DNA from: Hydra vulgaris
Taxonomy: Eukaryota > Cnidaria > Hydrozoa > Anthoathecata > Hydridae
Assembly (NCBI RefSeq): GCF_038396675.1
Contig: NC_088934.1
Location: 4,026,001 to 4,090,000, forward strand
DNA length: 64,000 nucleotides
Reading direction: 5' to 3'
This document shows positions 15,056 to 21,892 of the stretch, piece after piece. The position numbers and the translations under genes were made by a program. The notes under the pieces are model-generated. The model ran no database searches. It worked only from the letters and a program-made list of their open reading frames with translations, and was not told where the DNA came from. How positions within the stretch are numbered: position 1 is the first letter of the stretch; each line of letters begins with the position of its first letter.

Positions 15056-17452
15056 ATGGAAAAGAAATTAAGTAGTACAAGCGGTGCAGCAAAAAGAAGA
15101 AAGTTAAAAGAAACAAAAGCTACTTTAGCTAAATTGCCGAAGCTAACAACGTTTTTGAAACCAATCGAAAAGCGAGCGGAAACGGAAGTGGAAAGTCAAA
15201 ACTCTGCAGAAGTGGTATGTATAAATCAGTCAGTAGAACATGACGATATCGAAGAAAACATTGCTACTGGTAATAAAAATGTGAACGAAGAAGATGTGAA
15301 TAGGTCTCCGAGAAACCACCGAAATGAAGACAAGGAAGATTCAAACTCTGATACGAATGACGCCATCGAACAAATTGATTTAGAAAAATCAAGTAAATTA
15401 TTTTCTACTGACATTGCAAATTTTCATGGTAAAATACTAACAAAAGATATTAAGAAAATAATTGTATTATCGGAATCGTGTCGGCCAAAAGGTCCTTTTA
15501 TACGCGACCCTCTTGCAAGAAAACCGTAGGTTTTCCAAGGAATATTTTAAAACTACCACAAAATATGGATCTATAGAAAGAATGTGGCTTTGCTATTCCC
15601 CAAAACTTGATGCCGTTTATTGCGAGCCTTGTTGGCTTTTCTCAGAAGAACGAAAAGCAAAGGATAACTGGCGTGAGCATGGTGTCAGAGATTGGCGTGG
15701 TCTTTCTAAAAAAATTAAAATTCACGAAAATAGTCAACAACATATATTTGTTTGTTGCATTTATGAAAAATGGCGACATAATGAAACAATTGATGAAAAT
15801 ATAGAAGAACAAATACGATACCAATCAAATTTTTGGGTGCAAGTCTTAGAGCGGATAGTAAATATAACATTAGCACTTTGTAAAAATTCTTTGGCTTTTC
15901 GTGGTCATCGTGAATCATTTGACAATGAATATAATGGTAATTTTTTAACCCAAGTTCAACTTTTAGCTAAATATGATAATGTTATGAAGCAAGTTTTGAG
16001 TATGCCAAATGGATCTATAAAATATTTAAGCCATCAAATTCAAAATGAAGTCATACATTGCCTTGCAACGCATTTAAAAGCCACTCTTACTGCTGATATT
16101 AATAGTTCACCTTTTTATTCAATTATAATGGATACAACACAAGATATTACTAAAAGAGATCAGCTCAGTCAAGTATTTAGATACGTAAAAATTAATAAAA
16201 ATGAAAAAGATGAAGCCACATCAATTGAAATTAAAGAAGTTTTCTTGGGATTCACGGAAATATATAACCACACTGCTGCTGGACTACATGAAGAAATTTT
16301 AAATCTGCTAGAAAAACATCATATAAAATTAAGTAACTGCAGGGGTCAAGGTAATGATAGTGCGAACGTCATGAGTGGAATATACAATGGGGTTCAGGCC
16401 CTTTTTAAGAAAAATCAACCCAATGCTATGTATAAGCATTGCGCAGCTCATAATTTAAATCTTGTTATTAACGATGCGGTTAAATGTTGTGTTGAAGTTG
16501 CTTCATTTTTTGTAATGCTAGAAGATGTGTATTCATTTTTCGGAAATAGCATAAACAGGTGGGATCTACTATCCAAATATACAGGAGAATCACAAATAAC
16601 ATTAAAAAGGTTAAATCCAACGCGATGGGCAGGACGATATACTTCTCTTTTCGCCGTTAAAATTCGCTTTCTTGATATAATGAAAGCTCTTTCCGAGATA
16701 TCAATAACAAGTACAAAACGTGAAGAACGCGAAGAAGCAGTACGAATACAAAAAAATATGAGCAGTTTCGAATTTGTTTTTTTATGCGTGCTTTTGTCTA
16801 AAATCCTTAATGAGGTACATATACCATCAAAATTGCTGCAAACTAAAAATTTAGATCTTATGACAGCTTCAGGTTCTCTAGAAAATGCCAGCAAAAATTT
16901 AAAACAATATAGAAAGATGTTTGATTCAGCAAAACTTGAAGCGGTAGAAATAGCGACTACGTGGCAGATTCCTGCAATATTTTTTCAAAAAAGAAGAAAA
17001 AATGTGAAAAGGCATTTTGACGAATTATCTACAGATCACCGTTTTGATAGTAGTGAGGAAATTTTTCGCATCAATATTTTTATAAAAATTTTGGACGTCG
17101 TTATCAACCAACTCGACAATAGATTTAAAGGAATGCAAGAAGTGGTACAATTATTTTCCTGCATCCATCCAAATAAATTAATGGTAATGAAAGAACGTGA
17201 GATCATAAGCTGTGCAGAAGCCATTCAGAGAAAATATAGTGAAGATATAACAACTGAATGTCCGCTGCAAATGGTTATGGTAAAGTTAATACTACACGAT
17301 GAAATATCAAAAATATCATCTATACATGAATTGGCTGACCTTTTAATAGTAAAATTGTCAACTATAGCTGCAAGCGTTCCACAAATGATAACAGCATTGT
17401 TATTGTTTCTTACATTACCTGTTACTGTTGCATCAGCTGAACGTTCTTTTTC
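15056..17452 (+). pseudogene. hAT transposase, N-terminal and central part
   Basis: The frame from ATG 15056 gives a Lys-rich N-terminus (GAAKRRKLKETKATLAKLPKL), an acidic linker and GPFIRDP. A one-base frameshift near 15515 moves it to the frame continuing to 17452. That frame contains a TTF-type zinc-finger block (WLCYSPKLDAVYCEPCWLF), IIMDTTQDITKRDQLS with a catalytic Asp, GNDSANVMSGIYNGVQA with the second Asp, a KHCAAHNLNLV motif and VASAERSFS near the catalytic Glu. After SFS the coding sequence is cut by a compound insertion; what follows to 17615 is foreign sequence. The remaining C-terminus is at 26695-26878. Confidence 0.85.
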
Positions 17453-17455
17453 CAT

Positions 17456-17480
17456 GCTTTATATAAGGTTACTTTCTATA
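17456..17480 (+). repeat. 25-bp direct repeat, left copy
   Basis: Identical to 20772-20796. The pair brackets about 290 bp of unidentified sequence plus the Transib. It could be a long target duplication of an unrecognised insertion or a local duplication. Confidence 0.7.
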
Positions 17481-17743
17481 AATGTTTGTGTGCCACAATA
17501 TTTGAAATCAATTTTTGAAAGCTTTTTTCTCAACCAATTTTGCTCAAATTTTGCACACTTAATCATTTTCGATAACAATACAAGGAAATGGAAAAATTTG
17601 ACCAAAAAAAGTTAATTAAGTTAACAAAAATTTAATTTGTATTTCCCCATACATTTTATTTATTTGATATGAATTGCGTATTACGTCACAAAAATCATCG
17701 ATTTGCAAATTATTTGCAGTTTCGAAGACATTAAAGCGCAGCG

Positions 17744-17771
17744 CACAGTGGGCCAGGTGGTAGACAAAACC
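17744..17771 (+). other. Left end: 12-RSS-like signal
   Basis: Heptamer CACAGTG at 17744-17750, a 12-nt spacer 17751-17762, then GACAAAACC at 17763-17771. The heptamer is identical to the V(D)J recombination signal consensus. The second block resembles the ACAAAAACC nonamer with one A fewer. Confidence 0.8.
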
Positions 17772-18464
17772 TCAAAAAAAAAATTTCGAAATACTTCCAA
17801 CTACTTAGTACATTATATTTATAAGAGCATAATGTATGGTTTAAAACATTATTTGTAGTTTAATTGTACATCATAAATGTACAATTATTATTTACAATTG
17901 AATATAATGATGAATTAATTTTTTTTTTTTTTTTTAATATACCATAACAACATAACTATAACAACAAATAACTTTTAAATTATTTAACATATGCGAAATT
18001 AATTGACGTATTATTAAAATTTAATTTGATAGCTTTTCAAAAAATACCATAACAAATTCCAAGGTCTTGTATTAAAGTCACAGTTTTATTTTGAAATATA
18101 AAGGTAAGATTCTTGTTTATAGTATAAAAATATTATGTTAAAAGTGGCTCATATAGTTTAGAACCTGCTGGAACAGCATATTAATGTTAGAATAAGTTAA
18201 TACAATATATGTACAGCCTGTTGGTGCTGTTTTATTCTGCTCATAGCTGCCCCTTTAGGTTTGGTAAACATTTAAAAAATATATATTGTTGTAAAATGCT
18301 ATTCGCGACAAACCTATTTTTTGGTTTGTTGTCATTATTAGGTGTTGTGCTTATTGTACTGGCCTAATTAAATATATCTGAAATAAAAATAATGGCCATA
18401 TTCATGTTATATTAGTTTATAGTGGTTGCACTAATAATTTTAAATTAATTTTTTTGTAGTTGAT

Positions 18465-20442
18465 ATGAAGATAAGTGATGTCCATAACCGTATACGGCAT
18501 GACCAACTAAATCCGAGTGATAAATTATTTTCTTTGTCTGTAGAAGCTATTTTAGTCACTATGAATTTGGGTTCTACTGGGTGTGCTGCATTTTTAAAAG
18601 TTTATCAAAAGAAATGGAAGGATGCTAAGCGAGGAAACATAAAGTTTGAGAGTAAAAATAAAAATTGGCTGGCTCAGGACTTTAAATCTACATACAGTAA
18701 TAATATATCTAAGCCTGATAATTCTAGTCAATTACATAAGATTGGTGGAAGACCAAGTTGTTCCTTTAAAGTTGCTTCTGACAAAACCAAAAGGAGAAGA
18801 CTTAATGATATTATAAATAATTTTTCTAGTGATGAGTTGCTCCACTCAGCAAGGCTTAAAATAAGAAATGAGTATAATGATGAGGCTGCCAAGCAAGTTG
18901 CTGAGATATCAGAACCTTCTAGTCAATTTAAAAAGTATACACCTGATGAAGGTCTGGCATTAATTATAGATGGTGGCATGTCAAAATCAACCTACCAACT
19001 TATGAGAAATGGAGCTGAAGAACGTGACTGCCATATATATCCTTCATACAACAACATAAGATTGTCCAAAGCTAAGTGCTATCCAGAGAACATCTTTGTT
19101 GATGATTATTCAGCACATGTACCACTACAAGAATTATTAAAACATACAGTAAAAAGACTTTGTGAGGTGCAAGCTCCTGTGATCAGCACAATGCTAGATG
19201 GTTTGACCCGGTTGACTTTGCGTTGCAAGGCTGGGTTTGATGGGGCTACTGGGCAAAGCATGTACAAGCAAATTAGTAGTGAGGAAGCTGGAGATCGTAA
19301 CTTAAAAAAAGAAGAATCTCTGTTCATTACCTGCTTAGCACCACTAGAACTCAGTGGGTTCTGTAATAACAAAAAAGTACTATTATGGCGAAATGAAAAG
19401 CCATCATCTACTGCATATTGTCGTCCAATAAGATTTTCTTTTCAAAATGAAAGCAAAGCAGTTGTTATAGAAGAAGCAAAATATTTAGAATCTGAAATCA
19501 AAAAATGTGGTGTTTTTAATTTTACTTTTAATGGAAAGGAACTGGTTGTCAAAAGTATTATTGAACTGACCATGATTGATGGCAAAATTCAAACTATTCT
19601 GTCTCATGTGACTAACTCAACTCAATGTTGCTCTGTGTGTGGTGTGTCTCCAAAAAACATGAATAACTTAGAAATGGTGCTGAAATTGGACAATTCTAAT
19701 AATTTAGAATTGAAATATGGTCTTTCTAGCCTGCATGCCTGGATTAGGTTTTTTGAGATGGTATTGCATATTGGATATAAACTAGAAACTCAAAAGTGGC
19801 AGTCTAGAGCTATAGAAGATAAAGAAAATGTTATGCAAGTGAAGAAACGTATACAGACAGAATTTATGAACCAAATGGGACTAGTTGTGGATTTCCCAAA
19901 AAGTGGAGGATCTGGTAAGTGAAATTACATAAATACTTTTATATAAATCATCAGGTTAACTATCACATATACAATTTGTAGGTACCAGTAATGATGGTAA
20001 CACTGCCCGACGAGCCTTTGCAAACTATCAATCAACTGCCAAAATTTTGAAAGTAGATGAAACTCTTTTATTTTATTTTTACATCATACTAGTCACTTTA
20101 TCATCTGGATTTGAAATTGACACTGTCAAATTTAAAGAGTTCTGTATTACTGCTCTTAAACTTTACATATCTAAGTATTCCTGGTATTACATGGCACAAT
20201 CAGTACACAAAATTTTAGTTCATGGCCACGCCATCATTGCTAGACAGTACTTGCCAATTGGACTGATGTCAGAGGAGGCCCAAGAGGCCTGTAACAAGGA
20301 TTTTAAAAAGTTTTGGGAAGATTTCAGTAGAAAGACTTCCAGAATTGACACAAATCGTGACCTAGTTAACAGGCTACTTGTATCTAGTGATCCTGTCATA
20401 ACATCATTAAGAAAGTGTCATAAAAAAATGGTAAGAGTTTAA
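18465..20442 (+). CDS. Transib transposase (RAG1-core-like recombinase)
   Basis: Exon 1 is 18465-19914 and exon 2 is 19982-20442, with a 67-bp GTAAGT...TTGTAG intron. Joined, they encode about 636 aa. Visible motifs are GFDGATGQSMYKQ with Asp259, TMIDGKI with Asp372, CSVC (a zinc-binding-type pair) and LHAWIRFFE. In exon 2 come GTSNDGNTARRAF, VHKILVHGHAII and SEEAQEACNKDFKKF. The last aligns by eye with the RAG1 segment around Glu962, making Glu585 the likely third catalytic residue. The protein should bind the CACAGTG ends, cut by hairpin formation and integrate into 5-bp targets (family knowledge). An AG just upstream of the ATG suggests a 5' untranslated exon. After the stop, SEVLALLRESAPP, a plausible C-terminal tail, is readable in another frame, so one base was probably lost near 20437. 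Confidence 0.93.
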
Positions 20443-20702
20443 AAAAATACCCCAGTGAAGTTTTGGCTTTGCTGAGGGAATCAGCTCCACCTTCTTCTTT
20501 TTCTTTGTAGCTAAACACAATTTGTTGTTTGATTTTTAAAAAAGGTTGATATTGAAAAAAATATTTTTTTACTACCTAAGCCAATTAAATGTCTTTTATT
20601 TTATTAAAAATTAAAATATTCTTGTTAAAAATAAATATTATTTCATATATAATGATTATTTATATATCTAAATAGGTTTGTGAACCAATTGGGTAATAAT
20701 TA

Positions 20703-20741
20703 GGTTTTGTCCACCACTTCCCATATACCTGGCCCACTGTG
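20703..20741 (-). other. Right end: 23-RSS-like signal
   Basis: Read on the minus strand: CACAGTG (20741-20735), a 23-nt spacer (20734-20712), then GACAAAACC (20711-20703). It matches the left end except for an 11-nt block, TATATGGGAAG, inside the spacer, about one helical turn. Confidence 0.8.
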
Positions 20742-20771
20742 CAGCGTTTCAAAACCTATTGTTTTTTTCAC

Positions 20772-20796
20772 GCTTTATATAAGGTTACTTTCTATA
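20772..20796 (+). repeat. 25-bp direct repeat, right copy
   Basis: Identical to 17456-17480. It passes directly into the AT-rich microsatellite tract. Confidence 0.7.
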
Positions 20797-21130
<334 letters not shown>

Positions 21131-21152: not shown

Positions 21153-21474
21153 GAAATAGCCTCAGTGGTTTAGTTGGGAAGAGACTCGAAATTTGTAGGA
21201 AAATTTCAAAATTCTTCTGGAAGTTCCGAGTTCGAATCTCGGTTAAAGTATTGAGAACTATTTCTTACTCGCACCCAACGTCAAGGTGAGATGCGTGCCG
21301 AGGACTGAATGGCATTAGGGTGGATAAATATGATATGTCGCTAACGTACGACCTCAGGGCACCTGGCACACCCTGTTGTATTAAGAACCTTGTCCTTCTA
21401 AGGGGTCACTGGGAGGATGGACCGTCATTTACCGCCATACTCGTGGGAACACATATGACAAACAAAACAAACAA
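21153..21474 (+). mobile_element. Second tRNA-derived SINE type
   Basis: The head has an A-box-like GTGGTTTAGTTGGGAAGAG, an extended middle arm typical of class II (Leu/Ser) tRNAs, and a B-box GAGTTCGAATCTC. A GC-richer body follows (TACGACCTCAGGGCACCTGG and onward) and it finishes in an ACAAACAAAACAAACAA tail. It is unlike the SINE at 176 and 23174. Only one copy is seen here. Confidence 0.65.
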
Positions 21475-21490
21475 CCGGCCTGCTAAACCT

Positions 21491-21892
21491 ATGACGACTG
21501 AAACCGCTACACAACGGAAAAGACGATTGGAAAAGGAAAAACAAAAACGCCTGAAAAAACTAATGAAGGAAAGTGGAGAATCGAAACGTGCTAGACTGGA
21601 GAAAGACAAATCTCGTCGTGAAAGAGAAACGTGTGAGCAACATCAAGCACGTTTAGATCAGAAGAGAGAGTATATGTCAAACTTAAGAGCTGCAGAGACT
21701 CCAGAGCAACGCCAAGTACGACTTTCTCAAGTAAGAGAGAACATGATACAACTGAGAGCTGCAGAAACACCAGAGCAACGACAAGTACGACTCGCTCAGT
21801 CGAGTGAGATCTCTGGATGGCCTACAGATACAGGAATTGGACTGTGCCAAGCTAACTGGAAAGAAACCTTGCAACAACGACGCTTTGGCTGA
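21491..21892 (+). pseudogene. STPR-repeat protein fragment
   Basis: The frame from ATG 21491 gives a Lys/Arg-rich helix followed by two 23-residue units sharing LRAAETPEQRQVRL, preceded by partial units. Repeats of 23 residues with RAAETPEQRxxRL are the STPR motif, known from the FMBP-1 DNA-binding domain and common at the N-terminus of multicopy invertebrate proteins, some of them helicase-bearing. The repeat phase is lost after QSSEIS and the frame then ends, so this is a fragment. The preceding SINE supplies the apparent extra N-terminal residues of the longer open frame. Confidence 0.6.

Follow-up and report, generated by a model that had tools for sequence, protein, structure and literature searches.

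A Transib family of Hydra vulgaris with unlike 12- and 23-nt spacers fixed at its two ends

Transib transposons with 12/23 ends, in which a heptamer is separated from a nonamer-like box by 12 nt at one end and by 23 nt at the other, were reportedly described by Kapitonov and Jurka in 2005, as relayed by a paper citing them. The chemistry of Transib and RAG recombinases comprises a nick, a hairpin on the flank, a blunt transposon end and insertion with a 5-bp stagger. For Transib5 of Drosophila melanogaster and Transib2, N1, N2 and N3 of Anopheles gambiae, a section of a 2021 paper describes two dissimilar ends, in which 12 and 23 nt (plus or minus 1) separate heptamer-like from nonamer-like boxes, and credits Kapitonov and Jurka (PMC8355894). 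Most Transib families are symmetric-ended according to an excerpt of PMC8289069, and so is HzTransib of Helicoverpa zea, whose ends show little nonamer likeness (same excerpt) and whose hairpin chemistry is treated in a part of PMC6941560. Tao et al. (2022, PMC9435367) reported asymmetric ends for every Transib of subgroup I and for some of those in subgroup II. Here we describe a Transib element at positions 17744-20741 of a 64,000-nt stretch of Hydra vulgaris DNA (the window; G000:C15:4026001-4090000 of a 911.5-Mb assembly), which has unlike ends, in contrast to HzTransib. We use the name family A for this element and its relatives. The initial annotation of the locus had presented 12/23 spacing in a single non-vertebrate transposon as its point of interest; this novelty is taken away by the fly and mosquito elements, and 12/23 Transibs are known as a kind, just as Hydra Transibs are already in print. 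What family A adds is an unusually clean case, with genuine, well-preserved 12/23 ends that are fixed from copy to copy.

The coordinates of the element proved exact, with CACAGTG at both termini. As initially annotated, exactly 12 nt on the left and 23 nt on the right precede GACAAAACC, and a perfect 5-bp duplication, CAGCG, is present on both sides. The two spacers have GGCCAGGT in common next to the heptamer and GGTR next to the nonamer-like box. The window contains the outer 15 nt of the element exactly two times, at the two ends of the element, and with up to 3 mismatches we observed 5 matches compared to 0.18 expected from shuffles. A heptamer followed after 10-30 nt by ACAAAACC was found twice in the window and 0 times in 100 first-order Markov simulations, and when we scanned the window blindly for paired CAC...GTG termini that resemble each other over 12 nt and are flanked by the same 5 bp, this element alone came up. 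From the shuffles, the simulations and the blind search we can exclude chance as the source of the ends. Compared to the canonical nonamer ACAAAAACC (consensus given in PMC8289069), GACAAAACC matches ungapped at 6 of 9 positions; alternatively, it can be aligned as ACAAAACC minus one A, which makes the spacers 13/24. The 11-nt difference between the ends holds under either alignment.

For the analysis of sister copies we searched the genome with the DNA of the element (40 of 953 candidates scored, 44 matches) and fetched 39 loci. Most of these 44 matches were full-length and 97-100% identical. The left spacer measured 12 nt in all 38 left ends found (the window and 37 of the 39 loci); L038 and L041 had no left end, and their upstream stretches read N. 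The right spacer measured 23 nt in 33 of 40 copies (32 of the 39 loci plus the window), and we classified the seven aberrant right ends by eye. One of them (L019) keeps an intact 23-nt spacer with the heptamer replaced, an 89% copy (L044) has a 16-nt spacer and a changed heptamer, an 88% copy (L047) has lost the outer right end and retains 23-type inner sequence, and L040 and L042 have no right end; the other two (L030 and L035) are treated below. All 33 copies with both ends are flanked by a perfect 5-bp duplication, and 31 of these 33 are 12/23, with L030 and L035 as the exceptions. Spacers of 12 and 23 nt are thus fixed per end across family A, so that the description of the window element as a specific, well-preserved 12/23 copy is borne out and random spacer lengths among its sisters are not what we observed. 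The 33 separate flanks argue against the 31 copies being one segmental duplication. The duplicated target prefers C-A-N-T-G (C 27, A 20, T 22 and G 29 of 33). Divergence from the column majority among 32 aligned copies has a median of 0.33% (range 0.10-0.97%), and sequence comparison indicates that the family A copies are young. Kapitonov and Koonin note that an autonomous Transib is usually present as a single copy or a few (PMC4411706), and with such low copy numbers fixed end structures are hard to demonstrate.

Next, we considered related families. We chose the loci of family B, like those of family C below, among listed ends with 12-nt spacers, which means that their 12-nt end is no independent finding. 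Both ends were present at 12 of 16 family B loci, and all 12 of these are 12/23, with perfect duplications in 7 of the 12. Four family B elements are about 3.2 kb long, their transposase being 80-84% identical in exon 2 and less so in exon 1, and eight are 1.75-2.17 kb long with N-terminal pieces only. In A and B the 23-nt spacer has the same length, with differences at 8 of 23 positions. In a further group, A-prime, one locus (L065) has a 23-nt end and a 12-type end with a mutated heptamer, and a second copy (C12:17496862-17499831) is 12/23 with GATTG flanking both sides. Across the genome we counted 142 long ends of A/B type (control 0); among the first 100 listed, 92 have 23-nt spacers and three have spacers of 27, 28 and 41 nt. 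A tree of 25 C-terminal sequences grouped A, B1 and P0005 (100/99) and placed C elsewhere, the B1 row being 42% filled. At G000:C12:28920802, 28935786 and 28950813 we saw three identical 12-type ends on one strand with a spacing of ~15 kb, which suggests a repeated segment.

The spliced window frame encodes a 636-aa protein identical to P0001 (LOC136091543, Hydra vulgaris). Its match to HzTransib has an expect value (E) of 3e-96, with the FDG, MIDG and SEEA motifs aligned, and the catalytic residues D259, D372 and E581 are conserved at 90% or more in a 58-row alignment. A predicted model of the protein matches the HzTransib (PDB 6pqn, 6pqx) and RAG1 core folds, and its residues about 96-150 superpose on the nonamer-binding domain of RAG1. 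Judged from sequence and predicted model, the protein is a Transib transposase with a RAG1-core-like DDE recombinase domain, as initially annotated. The element accordingly shows what characterizes the Transib superfamily: a DDE transposase, a 5-bp duplication and heptamer-like inverted repeats starting with CAC. The first catalytic residue of HzTransib is D126 (a part of PMC6941560) compared to D259 in family A, and HzTransib chains match the family A protein only from residue 155 onward; HzTransib therefore has no counterpart to most of the N-terminal region. Compared to the vertebrate RAG1 core, family A shows about 16% identity, no RAG2, a nonamer box of 6/9 and 12/23 as anatomy. The element holds three frames of at least 60 aa, namely both pieces of the transposase and an 88-aa frame in antisense. 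We considered a RAG2-bearing element (RAGL, RAG1L-RAG2L) and rejected it, as a Pfam scan covering the two transposase pieces gave no kelch or PHD match. In the window copy the frame ends at 636 aa, as an A-run differs in length by one base: it has 7 A here, as in one other of the 32 aligned copies, and 8 A in its commonest form. The tail KSLKKYPSEVLALLRESAPPSSFSL also ends P0002 and five full-length family A copies. Since the full 659-aa frame is present in 5 of the 32 aligned copies (656 aa in one more), family A can be autonomous even if the window copy is not.

Table 1. Coordinates of the Transib element and its parts in the window
Feature	Positions	Strand	Remark
Left target-site duplication CAGCG	17739..17743	none	Read from sequence
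Left heptamer CACAGTG	17744..17750	+	Read from sequence
Left 12-nt spacer GGCCAGGTGGTA	17751..17762	+	Length 12 in 38/38 left ends found
Left nonamer-like box GACAAAACC	17763..17771	+	Read from sequence
Transposase exon 1	18465..19914	+	N-terminal region with GGRP motif; catalytic D259, D372
GT-AG intron	19915..19981	+	Spliced product equals P0001 across 636 aa
Transposase exon 2	19982..20442	+	GNTARR motif; catalytic E581; premature end after A-run frameshift
Usual family C-terminal tail KSLKKYPSEVLALLRESAPPSSFSL	20433..20510	+	Out of frame in window copy
Right nonamer-like box GACAAAACC	20703..20711	-	Read from sequence
Right 23-nt spacer GGCCAGGTATATGGGAAGTGGTG	20712..20734	-	Window plus 32/39 fetched loci
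Right heptamer CACAGTG	20735..20741	-	Read from sequence
Right target-site duplication CAGCG	20742..20746	none	Read from sequence

Family A differs from the fly and mosquito 12/23 Transibs, to which we liken it by description only, in its cnidarian host and in its many near-identical copies with matching duplications. The set of Tao et al., whose subgroups are told apart by the alpha11-alpha12 region and the type of C-terminal tail, includes Transib-7_HMp and Transib-9_HMp of Hydra vulgaris, and family A possibly equals one of them (PMC9435367). We found no paper on the heptamers of Hydra Transibs in the open-licence literature, in which PMC9435367 does hold Hydra Transib entries, and of the 14 element families of Hydra vulgaris that PMC12220107 counts as putatively active, Transib is one. 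In bacterial/archaeal and viral contigs our search patterns matched 32 and 61 stretches, respectively, none of which encodes a relative, and the DNA pattern of the 23-nt end had no match in viral contigs.

Taken together, the sequence evidence makes it very likely that the element is a young cut-and-paste Transib of Hydra vulgaris with fixed unlike 12/23 ends and a single RAG1-core-like DDE transposase. At either heptamer, cleavage by this enzyme very probably falls on the CAC edge; a nick at this edge, a hairpin on the flank and a blunt transposon end would be expected from the studied Transibs and RAG. It would insert into targets resembling C-A-N-T-G, staggering the cut by 5 bp, and the two unlike ends would be passed on as a constant combination, the left one built as heptamer-12-nonamer and the right one as heptamer-23-nonamer. 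We infer that the N-terminal region (residues about 96-150) may hold both GACAAAACC boxes and the core the heptamers, and that the additional 11 bp, about one helical turn, could help the dimer to grip two unlike ends. Related families with 12/21 and 12/12 ends, described below, suggest that the 12-nt end is the constant one and its partner end of variable length.

Several observations weigh against this reading. The window copy is frameshifted near its C-terminus, which the initial annotation did not mention. When the N-terminal region was searched against the PDB as a sequence profile, no RAG1 chain was returned, and a link to RAG1 by this route came to nothing, the sole match being the methionine repressor at chance level (E 1); the Pfam RAG1 model stayed below cut-off for the exon 2 frame and was unlisted for the whole protein. 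Within family A, L030 has a 22-nt right spacer and has lost its nonamer box while its duplications are perfect, and L035 has 12/11 ends with a perfect CACTG duplication; the loss of 12 nt in L035 may postdate the insertion. Among the 100 A/B-type long ends listed out of 142, 5 have 21-nt spacers. Family E, picked by protein P0010, has 574 right ends, and of the first 100 listed, 98 have a spacer of 21 nt (one 15, one 22); a copy at C8 is 12/21 with CACTG on both sides. Family C (L062, L063, L064) is 12/12 in 3 of 3 elements with perfect duplications in 2 of the 3.

Family E is very abundant, with about 574 right ends in the genome compared to 0 in the reversed control (loci L096-L101), and 37 of 68 scored protein matches to P0010 (68 of 8,750 candidates) have no stop codon. 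A family E copy at C6 (L097) has the 12 end and a rearranged right end; near position 478 of this locus the right end meets an inverted end-like copy, heptamer-to-heptamer, which resembles a signal joint. The 21-nt ends of B type are missing one AT of ATAT, and the element at C10:22923329-22926201, a 21-nt B-type element with CATTG at both flanks, either moved as 12/21 or afterwards lost two bases. The transposase of family C shares segments of 25-44% identity, and one of 60%, with that of family A.

How the unlike spacers came about and whether they are read can be weighed against these families. That the 11-nt block is a private indel of the window copy could be argued from short words (GGT) common to the sequences flanking it, as a slipped deletion could leave; this idea, which the initial annotation had named as a way to overturn its claim, is refuted by the 31 of 33 sister copies that are 12/23 and by family B, which repeats the 12/23 lengths, and we give it practically no credence. 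A passive history, in which unlike spacers are merely inherited, several lengths are tolerated and the match to 12/23 is partly coincidence, comes close to an even chance in our judgement. The 12/21 and 12/12 families sharing the genome with 12/23 fit such a history, as does the 12/11 copy with perfect duplications. We also listed convergent pairs drawn from 114 listed 12-type ends (100 of 242 matches plus 14 more) and 100 of 142 long ends: among the 56 pairs, 52 are 12/23, three are 12/21 (two with a common right end) and one is 12/28, and none is 12/12 or 23/23. This count is confounded by descent: deletion copies inherit both ends of their parent, so the absence of same-type pairs says little, although it is compatible with inheritance alone, and we do not use it as proof. 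Less easily explained by passive descent is that A and B both have exactly 23 nt despite 8 of 23 changes, with no net indel, and that the listed long ends keep their own length in 92 of 100 (A/B) and 98 of 100 (E) cases.

The lengths fixed within families, the nonamer-like boxes at each end and the model that puts the N-terminal domain on the nonamer-binding domain of RAG1 would suit a true 12/23-like rule, by which the transposase, like RAG, needs a short and a long end that differ by about a helical turn. However, family C is 12/12, though its transposase is distant and of another clade, and according to PMC8355894 RAG1 does not favour 12/23 over 12/12 when RAG2 is absent, while our element has no RAG2-like frame. 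With 12/21 and 12/12 families in Hydra, 12/23 is only one of several workable pairings, and we rate such a strict rule as rather unlikely. The asymmetry that the initial annotation had equated with the one governing antigen-receptor recombination is therefore shown here as anatomy, and any governing role of it would be putative. A bolder version of the reading with a constant 12-nt end, which we consider distinctly doubtful, is that the Hydra Transib families share the 12-nt end and vary the partner (23, 21, 12), so that transposases free of RAG2 would read spacer length as a tunable pairing code. If true, an animal that has no antigen receptors would thereby possess a functioning precursor of the 12/23 rule. 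The origin of the 12/23 rule is an open question on which family A bears, since one genome offers tens of near-identical 12/23 copies, a sister family in which the lengths are the same and the spacer sequence has changed, and, alongside, families that are 12/21 and 12/12; transposases and natural end pairs for a RAG2-free test of spacer choice are available from Hydra alone.

Searching the genome for CACAGTG-N(5-35)-ACAAAACC we found 273 matches compared to 53 in the reversed control. Among the first 100 of these matches listed, 68 spacers measure 12 nt, 19 measure 23 nt and 13 are spread over seven lengths; 7 of the 19 listed 23-nt spacers belong to a CACAGTGATGCAATACAGTGCAGAAATCATTACAAAACC-type repeat outside the studied Transibs. 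In this CACAGTGATGCAATACAGTGCAGAAATCATTACAAAACC repeat, to which 7 of the first 100 listed matches belong (e.g. C1:11443279 and C5:883357), 23 nt separate the heptamer from a nonamer-like 9-mer, and the spacer is unlike those of the studied Transibs in guanine-cytosine content and sequence.

In the window, a 717-aa open frame just left of the element (15462-17615) matches DUF4371 and, weakly, the hAT dimerisation domain in Pfam, and is likely another transposon, judging from these domains. To the right, a long TA-rich simple repeat lies at about 20790-20990, followed at 21320-21892 by a 190-aa frame with a match to STPR repeats (Pfam E 4e-11).
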